Assembly (NCBI RefSeq): GCF_002100115.1
Contig: NZ_ANBM01000002.1
Location: forward strand, 1-64,000
Source of the DNA: Anaerovibrio sp. JC8
GTDB lineage: Bacteria > Bacillota > Negativicutes > Selenomonadales > Selenomonadaceae
DNA: 64,000 nt
Reading direction: 5' to 3'
A program made the position numbers and the translations under genes. Every line of letters begins with the position of its first letter. Within the stretch, counting starts at the first letter, position 1. The notes beneath the pieces were generated by a model. It was not told the DNA's origin. It made no database searches and was given only the letters and a program-made list of their open reading frames with translations. Of this stretch, positions 999 to 29,109 are shown one piece after another.

Positions 999-2471
999 TC
1001 AGAATTTTTCCAGCCGTTTTTTGGTCTGCTCATTTACTTCACTGTCCTTCAGCTTCAACAGGGTTGATTCCATGGCACTGGTCAGCTGAAAGTCTGACTT
1101 TCTCCACTTATCAACAGTATTTAAGGCAATATTCCTTGTGCCTATAACTGGAGAATAGAGTCCTGCACAAATAAGCTTCTCACCCTTGCCCGGAACAGCC
1201 TGAAGCCCCTGAATAACATAAGACAATATACCATAATCGGCAAACTTCTCATCATTGCCCATTTCATTTTCCGGGCCGGAAGCCATATCCTCCAATGGCA
1301 GTTCATCCTCAAAGAGCTCAATGATTTCATCCACGTACTGTTTTTCCGGAAGCAGCAGGTCAATCATATCATACTTGGTCTGCCAATCATGACGCAGGGT
1401 ATCCATAGCCCGATCAGCATAGTCAAGTCCCAATGCCTTGCCAAGATAGAAGCCTTCACCTGCATCCATGGACGCTTCTACACAATCAATACACTCCTTG
1501 GAATCGAGAATTACAGCGGCACTATTCAGCAAACTGCCCTTTTCTGCCAGCTCGCTTTTCTCCAAAAAGTCCCGAATATCAAAAATATTACTGTAATCCT
1601 CCAGCTCCTCTGCGTATTTGTCCGCCAAATTGAAATACGCAGTAAGCAACTCGTTGGTTTTCTTGTATTTACTGAGTCCCGGAATCGGATTATCCTCCAA
1701 AGAGGCACCAATAAGCTGACCCGCCAATACAAAATCCTCTTTGGTTGCATCATCAGCAGACAGCTTTTCCAAAAGCCCGCCCCGCTTAATGGCTACAATG
1801 GCAGAATATTCCGGCATAATCTCATTCTTCCAGCCTTCCTCCAACAGCCACTGGGCCATCTCATCATTTTCAGGCTTCAGCATGCTCACGGCATGAATCC
1901 TGCCCCAGCCCTTAAGACGCTTGGCAACAGAATAAATCAGGGCATTGCCATCCTCAAAGGTACTCAAAAGGAACAGACAGAATAATGTCAGCTCCTCAGA
2001 TGCAGCCAATACCAGCAGAATATCCCGCAGTTCCTGGCTTTCCTCACGGTCAAGAAGCTCCAGAATAGTAATGGCAAATTTTACGGATTCCACATCCTCA
2101 CTCTGCACCAGCAGGGTCATGCAAAAACGGCCCAGTGCCTCCGGAGAAAGCTTCTCCGGATGTTCAAATACCCAATCCTGAAGAGCATCCATAACAGGCA
2201 GCATAACGCCTCCTGCCTGGAAATGAGTCAGCAGTGCGTTAACAGAATCCTTAAAACGCTCCTGGGAAGCCATTTCCAGCACCAGTGTCAAGGCACTGAT
2301 ATCCGGATTCTTGGTAGGTCCCATATGATAGCGGACAGTGCCATCAATAGCACCATCAGCAAAACGAAGCCCCTGCTCCGGCAACTGACGGAGCACAAAA
2401 TCATCAGGCAGGGTGCCATCCGGCAGCAATGCCTCTTTTATTCTATTATAAATTGATAAATTCTCTGACAT
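999..2471 (-). CDS. Uncharacterised alpha-helical protein, 490 aa
   Basis: I do not recognise this family. The protein has no signal peptide or membrane segment. It is acidic and Leu/Glu-rich, and looks helical throughout, with short recurring Leu/Ala helix pairs that would suit a HEAT- or TPR-like solenoid; this is an impression, not a domain match. The N-terminal part (residues 1-70) contains more aromatic and turn residues than the rest. The ATG at 2471 follows a GGGG ribosome site. The stop is 48 bases before tRNA-Thr, so the 3' end abuts the tRNA promoter. The amino acid permease lies 35 bp upstream on the same strand, so the two are probably co-transcribed. The length and codon pattern look like a normal resident gene. 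Confidence 0.8.
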   Translation of the reverse strand: MSENLSIYNRIKEALLPDGTLPDDFVLRQLPEQGLRFADGAIDGTVRYHMGPTKNPDISALTLVLEMASQERFKDSVNALLTHFQAGGVMLPVMDALQDWVFEHPEKLSPEALGRFCMTLLVQSEDVESVKFAITILELLDREESQELRDILLVLAASEELTLFCLFLLSTFEDGNALIYSVAKRLKGWGRIHAVSMLKPENDEMAQWLLEEGWKNEIMPEYSAIVAIKRGGLLEKLSADDATKEDFVLAGQLIGASLEDNPIPGLSKYKKTNELLTAYFNLADKYAEELEDYSNIFDIRDFLEKSELAEKGSLLNSAAVILDSKECIDCVEASMDAGEGFYLGKALGLDYADRAMDTLRHDWQTKYDMIDLLLPEKQYVDEIIELFEDELPLEDMASGPENEMGNDEKFADYGILSYVIQGLQAVPGKGEKLICAGLYSPVIGTRNIALNTVDKWRKSDFQLTSAMESTLLKLKDSEVNEQTKKRLEKF

Positions 2472-2505
2472 AGTAAAATCCCCTAAAATACCCCAAAATT
2501 ATATA

Positions 2506-3864
2506 TTATTCCACGCTGCCCTTTTTCTCCCGGCTCATCTTAAAACGGTAGCCTGCATAAAGAATACACAGCCAGATAGGAAGTGCAATAACCGCCATTC
2601 GCATATCCGGAATCTGGGTCATCATTACAATTACCCCCACCAAAAATGCCATACTAATATAGTTGGTCAGCGGATAAAGTACAGACTTGAATTTGGAATG
2701 AACACCATTTTCCTCGCAATACTTTCTGAACCGCATGTGAGTCAGGGTAATGCATACCCAATTTATAACTGCAGAAATGACCACAACCGCAAAAAGATAC
2801 ATAAATATCTGGCTTGGGAACAGATAGTTCATAACCACAATAATAAGGGTTATACAGGATGATACCAGAGTACCAATTACTGGCACGCCACGGGAGGACA
2901 GCTTCATAAACACCTTAGGTGCATCTCCCTTTTCAGCCAAGCCGTAAAGCATACGGGCATTACTGTAGATAGCGGAGTTATAAACAGATACCGCAGCTGA
3001 CAGCACAACGAAATTCAGAATATGGGCTGCCGCCGGAATACCTACATTATCAAAAATCTGTACAAACGGAGAAGACTCCATCCCCACCTGGTTCCAAGGC
3101 CACAGGCACATGAGCACAAACATGGTGCCCACATAGAATATCAGAATTCTCCAGATAACCTGGTTGATAGCCTTTGGAATGGAACGGTCAGGATCTTCTG
3201 CTTCACCGGCCGTAATACCCAAAAGCTCAATACCACCATAGGAGAACATAACCACAACGCAGGCCATAGCCAGGCCCCATACTCCATTTGGCATAAATCC
3301 GCCGTAGCTCCACAAATTGCTGATATTGTCAGGATAGCCCAAAGGATTTGTAATAATAAGATAAGCTCCCAAAAGAATCATACTGAGAATAGCCACTACC
3401 TTAATGAGGGCCATCCAAAATTCAGTCTCACCATAGGCACTTACATTAACCAGATTAATCGCCGTAATTACAATAAGACAAATAAGTGCTGACAGCCACT
3501 GAGGCACATCAGGCCACCAGTAATTTACATATATACCCACGGCAGTTATCTCTGCCATACTCACCATAATATAACAATACCAATAATTCCAGCCTGCCAA
3601 AAAGCCCGGGAATCCCCCCCAGTACTTGGTGGCATAATAACTGAAGGAACCTGCCACTGGCTCATGCACTGACATTTCCCCAAGCATACGCATGATAAAA
3701 TAAATTACTATGCCGCTTACCAGATATGCCAGCATAACTGACGGCCCGGTAAGGGCAATAGTTGAGGCCGAACCATAAAAAAGACCTGTGCCGATAGCAC
3801 TCCCCAGTGCCATCATTTGCAGGTGCCGGTTCTTCAAGCCTCGTTTAAGATTCTTGTTTTCCAA
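2506..3864 (-). CDS. Amino acid permease, AAT family of the APC superfamily
   Basis: Predicted inner-membrane proton-coupled amino acid importer of 452 aa with about 12 transmembrane segments. The N-terminal sequence LKNRHLQMMALGSAIGTGLF is the TM1 signature of the AAT family, whose unwound GxGxG-like segment binds the substrate carboxylate. HEPVAGSFSYYATKYWG and the later segment with GGIELLGITAGEAEDP are also typical. Family members carry proline, aromatic amino acids, GABA or D-Ser/Ala/Gly; substrate cannot be assigned here. The start is TTG at 3864 behind AGGAG. Its upstream region holds the DnaA-box cluster and repeat element at 3910-4138, including a minus-strand TATAAT at 4047-4052 that could drive it. 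Confidence 0.9.
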   Translation of the reverse strand: MENKNLKRGLKNRHLQMMALGSAIGTGLFYGSASTIALTGPSVMLAYLVSGIVIYFIMRMLGEMSVHEPVAGSFSYYATKYWGGFPGFLAGWNYWYCYIMVSMAEITAVGIYVNYWWPDVPQWLSALICLIVITAINLVNVSAYGETEFWMALIKVVAILSMILLGAYLIITNPLGYPDNISNLWSYGGFMPNGVWGLAMACVVVMFSYGGIELLGITAGEAEDPDRSIPKAINQVIWRILIFYVGTMFVLMCLWPWNQVGMESSPFVQIFDNVGIPAAAHILNFVVLSAAVSVYNSAIYSNARMLYGLAEKGDAPKVFMKLSSRGVPVIGTLVSSCITLIIVVMNYLFPSQIFMYLFAVVVISAVINWVCITLTHMRFRKYCEENGVHSKFKSVLYPLTNYISMAFLVGVIVMMTQIPDMRMAVIALPIWLCILYAGYRFKMSREKKGSVE

Positions 3865-3909
3865 TTAACCCAACTCCTAAAATTGAACATTATCTCACAG
3901 CCAATTTCT

Positions 3910-4023
3910 TGTGGATATTGTTAATAAGTTATGCACAGAATACCCCTTTTTGTGAATAACTTAGTGGATAACCCGAAAAATCAGCCATGTTTTTGCCAAC
4001 TTTTCCCCAATTTCTGTGGATAA
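3910..4023. promoter_or_regulatory. Cluster of DnaA boxes
   Basis: Using TTATNCACA/TGTGNATAA as the box, there are three exact matches: 3929-3937 (TTATGCACA), 3951-3959 (TGTGAATAA) and 4015-4023 (TGTGGATAA). Two more are one mismatch away: 3910-3918 and 3963-3971. A further near match, TTGTTCACA at 4059-4067, lies inside the repeat element. The cluster fills most of the 351-bp gap between the permease and the 125-aa gene. Neighbouring genes do not switch strand overall, so a bidirectional origin is unlikely; a DnaA-titrating or DnaA-regulated site is more plausible. Confidence 0.65.
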
Positions 4024-4045
4024 GTGTGTGGCAAATGACAAATAG

Positions 4046-4138
4046 TATTATAACGCAATTGTTCACATTTTTCCATTTTTTGAAATGGAAAAATATTCCT
4101 CTTAGCGTTTCAACGAGGCAACAGCCGAGTTATAACAT
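4046..4138. repeat. Two-copy structured element, copy 1
   Basis: Shares a framework with 61530-61609: TATTATAACGCA, TTGTTCA, a hairpin, GCGTTTCAACG, then TATAACAT. The hairpin here is a perfect 12-bp stem (4067-4078 with 4083-4094, ATTTTTCCATTT/AAATGGAAAAAT). The stem sequence differs from the other copy while pairing is kept. Read on the minus strand it includes TATAAT at 4047-4052, facing the permease. Confidence 0.6.
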
Positions 4139-4215
4139 ATTTTCAGTTTAGAAATAAATAACCTCTTGATGTATACATCCGCTTATGCTTTAATTACCTT
4201 CAGAGGTGACATTTT

Positions 4216-4593
4216 ATGGAAGAAAATAACAATCAGCAGCTTATAGATATGGCCCACGGTATGCAGGAAGACATCAAGATGAAGATGCTGGAAATGGTCC
4301 AGCAGGCTGCCAGTCCTTATGATATTCTCTATGAGATAGCTAATTATCTGGAAGCCGTTTCTGCAGAAAGAGGCTACGCCCAGCACATTATTGACAACAT
4401 CCACACCATTTATGGCATCGCCCTGAAGGATAAGAAGCCTCTGGAGGATGAGATAAAGGATCTGAAGGACCGGGCTGCACGAATTCAGGAATCCCTTGAC
4501 AGCGGCAAATTCTCCGAAGAAGAAAATGCCAGAATGGATTTTGCCATTAAGGCCCACCAACGAAAAATCAATCAGCTGAAAGACATGCTGTAA
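4216..4593 (+). CDS. Uncharacterised small coiled-coil protein, 125 aa
   Basis: One of only four plus-strand genes in the window. It begins at an ATG preceded by GAGGTGAC. The protein is soluble, charged and almost entirely helical, with heptad-like spacing in residues 70-125 (KKPLEDEIKDLKDRAARIQ and onward), so a coiled coil is likely. No signal peptide, cysteines or catalytic motif is visible, and I do not recognise the family. It ends at a strong hairpin terminator shared with the convergent GGDEF/EAL gene. The upstream gap carries the repeat element and DnaA boxes. Confidence 0.8.
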   Translation: MEENNNQQLIDMAHGMQEDIKMKMLEMVQQAASPYDILYEIANYLEAVSAERGYAQHIIDNIHTIYGIALKDKKPLEDEIKDLKDRAARIQESLDSGKFSEEENARMDFAIKAHQRKINQLKDML

Positions 4594-4596
4594 CCA

Positions 4597-4638
4597 AAAA
4601 ACTGTAGCAAGCATCAAGCCTGCTACAGTTTTTGTTTT
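4597..4638. terminator. Bidirectional terminator
   Basis: ACTGTAGCA pairs with TGCTACAGT, flanked by A-runs on the left and T-runs on the right. It serves the 125-aa gene on the plus strand and the GGDEF/EAL gene on the minus strand. Confidence 0.85.
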
Positions 4639-4640
4639 TA

Positions 4641-6332
4641 TTATATAAGCTTTTCAAATTCTTCTACGGAAAGTGGCTGAGAGAAATAATATCCCTGCAC
4701 CCAATTACAGCCAATGGATTTTAAGAATTCTGCCTGCTCCTCAGTCTCAACCCCCTCGGCAATAGTGTGGAGATTAAGGCTGCCCGCCATCTGAACCATG
4801 GCACTGAGAATATTGCCTCCTCTGCCGGTCTGGTCGGTGCTCCGCAAAAATTCCATATCCAGCTTTAATATATCTATATGAATATCCTTCAGCATGTTCA
4901 GAGATGAATAGCCGCTGCCGAAATCATCCATAAGAATCAGAAATCCTTCATTCTGGAGGGATTCCGTAACCTGCATAATCATCCTCGGGTCATCTGTATA
5001 GGCCGATTCGGTAATTTCCAGCTCCAGCAGATGCTTAGGAATGTTATATTTCCCCGTAAGCCCCACCAATACATTGATCAGCTCCGGATCATACAGGTCT
5101 ATTCTTGATACATTTACAGAAACCGGCTTAACTTCCTTCCCCAAATCCATCCATCTCCGGAGATTCCTGCAGGTTTCCTCCCAAATGTAACGGTCCACAG
5201 AATAAACGGAGCCATTCTTTTCCAAAACCGGTATAAACACCGAAGGCATCACACTGGTACCATCTGACTTAATCCAGCGTACAAGAGCCTCAGCTCCTAT
5301 GATGTCCTTGGTAACCAAATCATATTTTGGTTGAAGAAACAGCTTGAATTCCCTGTGCTCCAATGCGGCATCAAACTCATTGACTATTTTTTGCTCCAAA
5401 AGCATCTGGTCCCGCATCTTGTTGTCATATAAGCAATAAGGCATCACATGATTGCCCTTTGCCTGATTCAGGGCCATATTAGCCCTCTCAATCATTGTGC
5501 TGACAGGTATGCTCTTATCATCAACATGATATATCCCGAAGGTCAGTACCGTGCGATGGGATATCTCAAAGCTATTGGCCACTATCTGCATGGTATAAAT
5601 CAGCTTTTCTGCATCGCCCTCACCAGATTCAAAGCAAACCACAAAGTTATCGGCATAAAGTCTGGCCGAAAGACACAGCTCCAGGTCAATACTCTTAAGA
5701 AAGCCCGCTATATAGTTCAGCAGCTTATCTCCCTGATGCTCGCCAAATACCTCATTAATGACCTTAAACCTCTCAATGTTGATGCGCAGGATATCAAAGG
5801 ATTTCTCCGGATAGTCCGTCATCATATCCGACGCCCGGGCACAAAAAGCCTCACGATTAAGAAGGCCGGTAGCACTGTCATAGGACGCCAAAAATTCCAA
5901 ATCGTCCATGGCAGTCTCTGTCAAAACCTTGTAGGTTTTTTCCCGGTCATAGTCCAGAGCCATATTAATGCCGTTAATCATGAAGCCATCCGGTACCATG
6001 CGGTACATGGTGTTGATATTTAAAAGCAGCAGCTTTCTTTGCTGCAGGCTGGTCATGATTACATGGGATTCAATGGAAAGCTGCCCCTCCCGGATAAACT
6101 GCCGGCTGCGGATCTTGCTGATGTTGCACGGAGCAAACCGCTCATATTCTCCCTGCAGGAACCTCTTAACTTCCCAGCTGCCGCGGAAATAATAATGATC
6201 CGACGGGCTGAAGCCCACTACATTATCATCCAGCACATCGGCTATGGCATCCACTACTCCCTCGGTAAACAGACGCTTTATTAATTTTTCAGTTGCTCTT
6301 TGAAGATTATCTATTCCTACTCTTAAAGCCAT
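4641..6332 (-). CDS. GGDEF-EAL protein with degenerate GGDEF and intact EAL
   Basis: Cytoplasmic 563-aa signalling protein, predicted cyclic-di-GMP phosphodiesterase. Residues 1-130 look like an NTF2/SnoaL-type alpha-beta sensor domain. Residues 145-305 form a GGDEF domain whose active-site loop reads YADNF (226-230) instead of GGDEF, so cyclase activity should be absent. The EAL domain from about 320 keeps its key residues: EAL at 348-350, NVSR, ELEITES, DDFGSGYSSL, KLD, AEGVE and QGYYFSQP. There is no membrane segment. The degenerate GGDEF may bind GTP as an allosteric input, as known for some family members; that is inference. The ATG at 6332 follows GGGG. It is a single-gene unit ending at the shared terminator. 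Confidence 0.92.
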   Translation of the reverse strand: MALRVGIDNLQRATEKLIKRLFTEGVVDAIADVLDDNVVGFSPSDHYYFRGSWEVKRFLQGEYERFAPCNISKIRSRQFIREGQLSIESHVIMTSLQQRKLLLLNINTMYRMVPDGFMINGINMALDYDREKTYKVLTETAMDDLEFLASYDSATGLLNREAFCARASDMMTDYPEKSFDILRINIERFKVINEVFGEHQGDKLLNYIAGFLKSIDLELCLSARLYADNFVVCFESGEGDAEKLIYTMQIVANSFEISHRTVLTFGIYHVDDKSIPVSTMIERANMALNQAKGNHVMPYCLYDNKMRDQMLLEQKIVNEFDAALEHREFKLFLQPKYDLVTKDIIGAEALVRWIKSDGTSVMPSVFIPVLEKNGSVYSVDRYIWEETCRNLRRWMDLGKEVKPVSVNVSRIDLYDPELINVLVGLTGKYNIPKHLLELEITESAYTDDPRMIMQVTESLQNEGFLILMDDFGSGYSSLNMLKDIHIDILKLDMEFLRSTDQTGRGGNILSAMVQMAGSLNLHTIAEGVETEEQAEFLKSIGCNWVQGYYFSQPLSVEEFEKLI

Positions 6333-29031: not shown

Positions 29032-29109
29032 TGGTGACCCAGGAGGGACTCGAACCCCCGACCCCTTGATTCGTAGTCAAGTACTCTAATCCAGCTGAGC
29101 TACTGAGTC
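29032..29109 (-). tRNA. tRNA-Arg (ACG), copy 2
   Basis: Base-for-base identical to the gene at 305-382, including CCA and anticodon ACG. It is an isolated single-tRNA unit with its own promoter and terminator. Confidence 0.95.

Follow-up and report, generated by a model that had tools for sequence, protein, structure and literature searches.

A conserved array of DnaA boxes beside an amino-acid permease gene in Anaerovibrio, probably a control site rather than a second replication origin

Introduction

Clusters of DnaA boxes outside the replication origin have been described, in the literature that we found, mainly for Escherichia coli and Bacillus subtilis. In E. coli, DnaA is reported to bind in vivo mainly to double boxes separated by 2 or 3 bp, including the pair at nrdA, one half of which is TTATNCACT (PMC11317965). 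The same bacterium carries datA, a box cluster far from oriC that lowers initiation (PMC5295017), as well as DARS1 and DARS2, which have equal spacing and a first box in the opposite orientation (PMC5742627); both DARS2 and datA require IHF (PMC5295017, PMC5742627). In B. subtilis, DnaA-box clusters (DBCs) outside oriC were reported by Okumura et al. (2012), cited here through other papers, and deletion of six such clusters leads to early initiation (PMC5295017, PMC13220808). PMC5295017 also states that, in B. subtilis, no regulator turning DnaA-ATP into DnaA-ADP had been identified, nor any cluster that contributes significantly to initiation. A literature search covering few subscription journals returned no paper title on such clusters in Negativicutes, Selenomonas or Anaerovibrio, and no paper joining the DnaA box, a permease and DnaA as a transcription factor.

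Here, we analyzed a DnaA-box array in a 64,000-nucleotide stretch of Anaerovibrio sp. JC8 DNA (hereafter, the window), which comprises bases 1-64000 of contig C2. Similar to the double boxes of E. coli, the array contains a tandem pair of boxes with 3 bp between them, one of which, as at nrdA, is TTATNCACT, but it adds a facing box and three more boxes and belongs to a genus of the Negativicutes. Similar to the B. subtilis DBCs, it consists of boxes away from oriC in a genome with several clusters, and it differs in having a stereotyped core and a constant place next to a permease gene in 16 genomes, with DnaA binding being predicted. It shares with datA, the layout of which is IHF-dependent, the nature of a DnaA-box cluster far from oriC, and with the E. 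coli DARS core the arrangement of one box opposite two tandem boxes with a 3-bp gap, a geometry that recurs at several loci. With its genus-wide occurrence, its invariant boxes, its double-box core and its constant transporter neighbor, the array offers a clean natural case for asking whether such a site acts in timing, in transcription, or in both.

Results and Discussion

Composition of the Array

Positions 3910-4023 hold six DnaA boxes, R1 to R6, three of which match TTATNCACA exactly and three with one mismatch; a preliminary description of this DNA was right about the three exact boxes but had put the total at five rather than six. R1 (3910-3918, ATATCCACA) and R2 (3919-3927, TTATTAACA), both on the minus strand and each with one mismatch, are followed by R3 (3929-3937, plus strand, exact TTATGCACA), which faces R4 (3951-3959, minus strand, exact TTATTCACA) and R5 (3963-3971, minus strand, TTATCCACT, one mismatch), and the array ends with R6 (4015-4023, minus strand, exact TTATCCACA), just beyond which a weak seventh box begins at position 4059 of the plus strand. 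R4 and R5 form a tandem double DnaA box with a gap of 3 bp, in agreement with the definition of 2 or 3 bp in PMC11317965, so that the core of the array is R3 opposite to R4-R5, with gaps of 13 and 3 bp.

The boxes are denser than chance would have it, as the preliminary description had supposed. Neither three exact boxes nor six boxes with at most one mismatch fell within any 114 bp of 120 Mb of simulated sequence (first-order Markov, matched to contig C2 in composition), and neither combination ever arose when the intergenic region was simulated 100,000 times. Contig C2 as a whole (303 kb) is enriched as well, with 39 exact boxes observed versus 14 simulated. As in a DBC, several boxes thus lie in a short stretch above chance expectation and outside oriC.

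Position Relative to the Replication Origin

The dnaA gene (C2:291395-292786, minus strand), the product of which contains all three DnaA domains, is located ~288 kb from the array, and the two also share one contig, ~309 kb apart, in one (G013) of the seven relatives in which dnaA was placed. Judged by their sequences, the open frames on one side of dnaA are recF- and dnaN-like and that on the other side is rnpA-like. Every one of the 32 bins of the window has a negative GC skew. Below 290 kb, the skew of C2 is negative in 27 of 29 10-kb bins and stands at 0.009 and 0.001 in the remaining two, and it turns positive in 11 of the 13 1-kb bins from 290 kb onward, C2 extending just 13 kb past this turn. 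In the gap between dnaA and dnaN, TAGTAGCCGTAGTAGTAG is followed by GGCC and boxes, near C2:291170-291210, and this motif (trio at C2:291170-291193) resembles the DnaA-trio that PMC13220808 and PMC7561715 describe in B. subtilis and C. difficile. At the array, the skew does not change sign, and reading of positions 3864-4215 revealed no tandem DnaA-trio beside the boxes.

Because the distance to dnaA, the turn of the skew and the DnaA-trio-like motif all point to the dnaA region, the array is not oriC. The preliminary description fared well here, having placed the cluster away from dnaA and judged an origin at this point unlikely unless the skew were to switch sign. The rRNA operon promoter that it had assigned to the surroundings found no support, given that Rfam at gathering thresholds yields no rRNA in the 64-kb window, where it detects seven tRNAs, six at 214-951 and one at 29035. 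A secondary or former replication origin could explain why DnaA boxes are dense at the array, but we consider it extremely improbable, with the skew being negative across the 32 bins of the window and positive only near dnaA, and the DnaA-trio-like motif sitting between dnaA and dnaN.

Conservation Within Anaerovibrio

We searched 16 Anaerovibrio genomes, several of them incomplete assemblies, for the core pattern TTATNCACA-N13-TGTGNATAA-N3-AGTGNATAA, allowing up to three mismatches. The pattern was found once per genome in 15 of the 16, with 14 exact matches and one with a single mismatch, and the reversed control gave no match in these genomes; in the 16th genome (G005), the first gap of the core is 1 bp shorter. 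In every genome, the array lies upstream of a gene for a 125-aa protein and has an amino acid permease gene as its divergent neighbor; the preliminary description had suggested looking for the same cluster upstream of this permease in relatives, and there it is, in 16 of 16. In both R4 and R5, eight of the nine positions are invariant in all 16 genomes and variation is confined to the free base of the DnaA box, with the off-consensus T, the last base of R5, kept throughout; R6 consists of the same nine bases in all 16. Mean information over the 16 genomes amounts to 1.59 bits for R1, 1.63 bits for R2 and 1.70 bits for R1-R5 together, versus 0.61 for the 17 columns between the boxes, averages in which G005 is one base out of register at R3.

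Because the same divergent gene pair flanks the array in all 16 genomes and R4 and R5 tolerate changes at the free base alone, the array is, as judged from the alignment, under selection. Its retention in the relatives is also the reason why we regard it as probably no second origin but a real control site beside the gene of an amino-acid transporter.

Measured from start to start, R5 and R6 are 51-52 bp apart in 13 of the 16 genomes (52 bp here) and 42-43 bp apart in the other three, and since the two classes differ by about one helical turn, the spacing hints at DnaA-DnaA contacts, a suggestion and no more. Such contacts would be at home in a site that, like DARS or datA, alters which nucleotide DnaA carries, as would the box order of DARS with its 3-bp tandem gap, repeated at several loci. 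When we read the cores of E. coli K-12 DARS1 and DARS2, we found the same order of boxes as in the array and gaps of 5 and 3 bp, so that the facing box, which stands 5 bp from its partners in both DARS cores, is 13 bp away in the array. The DARS spacing itself, at up to three mismatches, occurs in only 1 of the 16 genomes, which is not the one analyzed here, and on a contig other than that of the array. For these two reasons, the wider facing-box gap and the absence of the DARS spacing from this genome, we do not class the array as a DARS; it resembles DARS in box layout, and an ADP-release activity would be hypothetical. The option of DnaA reactivation raised in the preliminary description accordingly holds for the order of the boxes and fails on their spacing. 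Considering further that DARS2 and datA depend on IHF and that, according to PMC5295017, no regulator converting DnaA-ATP to DnaA-ADP has been identified in B. subtilis, a site of this type appears quite improbable to us.

Relationship to the Permease Gene

The permease gene (2506-3864, minus strand; PF00324, 452 aa, TTG start) begins at a nearly constant distance from the array: the separation between R3 and the start codon is 57-65 bp in all genomes but G010, where it is 101 bp. On the other side of the array, a putative permease promoter, TGGAAA-N17-TATAAT, occupies positions 4047-4075 of the minus strand, with the -10 at 4047-4052, a consensus match only, promoter-like sites being about as frequent here as in shuffled sequences. 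A minus-strand TATAAT recurs past R6 in the 16 genomes, at 27-33 bp from the start of this box in 15 of them and at 101 bp in G010. The array thus has a fixed place between the putative -10 and the start of the permease gene and, if TATAAT is taken as the permease -10, spans the leader from about +17 to +130.

Our leading interpretation, held with somewhat less than even confidence, is that the array is a predicted DnaA-binding control site in the permease leader, which would also hold DnaA and thereby come close to the DBCs of B. subtilis. DnaA would be anchored at the double box R4-R5 and at the strong boxes R3 and R6, and the weak boxes R1 and R2 would then be filled cooperatively. The bound DnaA would cover the DNA just downstream of the permease transcription start, and the permease would be repressed or paced by free, probably ATP-bound, DnaA, while the occupied array would also keep several DnaA molecules away from oriC and so might affect the timing of initiation.

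Because the facing boxes R3 and R4 have opposite orientations and would be part of the transcript, the permease leader RNA might alternatively fold into a hairpin at these boxes, or the cluster might be recognized by a regulator other than DnaA. The fifth bases of R3 and R4 could form Watson-Crick pairs in 9 of the 16 genomes and G-U pairs in 3, but they are unpaired in the remaining 4, and R5 and R6, which lie outside the hairpin, are conserved at least equally, both of which weaken the hairpin. Furthermore, no Rfam leader family reached threshold over the window, and the variable base is exactly the free base of the DnaA box, which speaks against any other regulator as well as against the hairpin. 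We therefore rate this pair of possibilities as highly improbable.

The 125-aa Gene and the Inserted Repeat

The other neighbor of the array encodes the 125-aa protein (4216-4593, plus strand), which has no Pfam or NCBIfam match and, counting this genome, was detected in 35 of 60. From R3 to its likely start codon, the distance is 188-229 bp in 13 of the 16 genomes, the exceptions being 287 bp in this genome, where a repeat is inserted, 270 bp in G010 and 665 bp in G012. Hence, both flanking distances are fairly constant, that on the permease side somewhat more so, with the permease side widened by insertions in 1 of the 16 genomes and the 125-aa side in 3. A putative promoter of the 125-aa gene, TTGATG-N17-TTTAAT (4166-4194, plus strand), a consensus match that is not the best candidate in every relative, is separated from the array by ~140 bp.

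Control of the 125-aa gene, or of both divergent genes, rather than of the permease alone, would be consistent with the presence of this gene beside the array in all 16 genomes, with its fairly regular spacing, and with the location of the core 1.8 kb from the 125-aa gene in G030, at a locus without the permease. We nevertheless deem it very unlikely. The putative promoter of the gene lies well outside the array in this genome; the array is separated from the gene by the repeat here, by an extra stretch in G010 and by a 665-bp gap with a further open frame in G012; exact boxes are missing within 1.5 kb at all 14 other-genus loci of the gene that were read, from a total of 19 matches; and in G060, a member of another genus, the core is found between other genes. 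As for the coupling to replication that the preliminary description had proposed for either the permease or the 125-aa protein, the permease is somewhat better supported and the 125-aa protein less so, owing to the 57-65 bp distance in 15 of the 16 genomes, the longer gaps on the 125-aa side in 3 of them, and the presence in another genus of a core upstream of a permease ortholog. Since R3 also keeps a fairly steady distance from the start of the 125-aa gene, the evidence from these alignments links the array to the permease only moderately.

The AT-rich repeat next to the array, which the preliminary description had noted, is real and looks unrelated to it. It occupies positions 4048-4136, with TTATAAC at both ends (4048-4054 and 4130-4136), is a multi-copy insertion and not a part of the array, and has no counterpart in the 15 further genomes of the 16-genome alignment, G010 having a different extra stretch at this place. 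Ten other matches to the repeat (TTATAACGC ... TTAGCGTTTC), of 52-81 bases and at least 78% identity, are present on C2. A search of positions 2400-4700 against a phage collection gave no match.

Distribution in the Family

Across 121 genomes of the family, the core pattern with at most two mismatches was found in 35 genomes from 12 of the 30 genera, namely, in all 13 Anaerovibrio genomes sampled and in 22 of the 108 others, compared with no match for its reversed control. Convergent pairs of exact boxes no more than 30 bp apart are far more widespread, with 495 pairs in the 121 genomes, 104 of which carry at least one, versus 5 for the reversed control. Genus g13 is unlike most of the family in this respect, with no convergent exact box pair in any of the 12 genomes sampled.

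A match to the permease was obtained in 76 genomes, from which 30 loci were read. In G060 (genus g44), the core R3-R4-R5 lies upstream of a permease with 67% identity and is flanked on its far side by a gene for hydroxyethylthiazole kinase, and R1, R2 and R6 were not seen at this locus; in G019, two exact boxes in a different geometry precede a permease ortholog (78%). Three observations count against a permease operator. No exact box is present within 420 bp at 21 of the 22 permease loci from other genera; the core of G030, which carries one mismatch and lies between the kinase gene and a gene for an EAL protein, occurs in the absence of the permease; and other clusters, one of them present in all 16 Anaerovibrio genomes, adjoin unrelated genes. 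Moreover, constant short distances are weak evidence, as short stretches may simply gather few indels. A bolder proposal is that Selenomonadaceae reuse the three-box module, in which one box is set opposite a double box with constant spacing, at multiple sites on the chromosome as an element for remodeling or sensing DnaA, that is, a counterpart of DARS with a geometry of its own, the Anaerovibrio copy of which makes the amino-acid permease follow the replication cycle; we put this forward as an unlikely generalization.

Other DnaA-Box Clusters in the Genome

Besides the dnaA region, contig C2 contains DnaA-box clusters starting at 188309, 275694, 277428 and 300272. Judged by their sequences, the neighboring genes are ilvA and NlpC (188309), cdd (275694), TPR and LytR (277428), and pfkA (300272). 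The first of these clusters (C2:188309-188388), located between ilvA and an NlpC/P60-like gene, recurs at up to three mismatches in all 16 Anaerovibrio genomes, where one or both of the flanking genes accompany it each time. A tandem pattern common to the TPR/LytR and pfkA clusters is found in 6 of the 16.

The multiplicity of such clusters on the contig that bears dnaA, together with the retention of the ilvA/NlpC cluster beside at least one of its two genes in all 16 genomes, is what would be expected if the array were a DnaA sink resembling the DBCs of B. subtilis, which would hold DnaA after early duplication and delay reinitiation, with the permease as a bystander. Also compatible with a sink are the similar distances between the array and dnaA in G013 and here (~309 and 288 kb; one of seven relatives), the 495 convergent exact pairs versus 5 in the control across the family, the core of G030 that stands without the permease, and the early initiation that, according to PMC5295017 and PMC13220808, follows deletion of six clusters in B. 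subtilis. A sink, however, has no need to keep its distance from a gene start and a -10 constant, even though the scarcity of indels might account for that constancy, and PMC5295017 states that no B. subtilis cluster contributing significantly to initiation had been identified. Overall, we hold a sink to be a real possibility that nonetheless falls well short of even confidence, and retain the permease-leader control site, which would itself sequester some DnaA, as the preferred interpretation.

Several features of these clusters and of the DnaA repertoire can be added. The clusters at C2:275694-275759 and C2:277428-277647 flank a gene for a TPR protein, and boxes near cdd and an MgtC-like gene occur in another genus, too (L139). 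The cluster at C2:300272-300456 is located beside pfkA, ~7.5 kb from dnaA; the tandem-pattern search recovered a pfkA cluster in no other genome of the 16, and a nearly identical sequence to the pfkA-side cluster is present at G013:C3:10425-10467, ~8 kb from the dnaA of that genome. Finally, this genome encodes a 433-aa protein (L002:616-1917; G000:C5, ~140.7-142.0 kb) that has no match to the DnaA DNA-binding domain, contains two tandem DnaA-type AAA+ domains (PF00308, two stretches), and adjoins a protein with the metallo-beta-lactamase fold.
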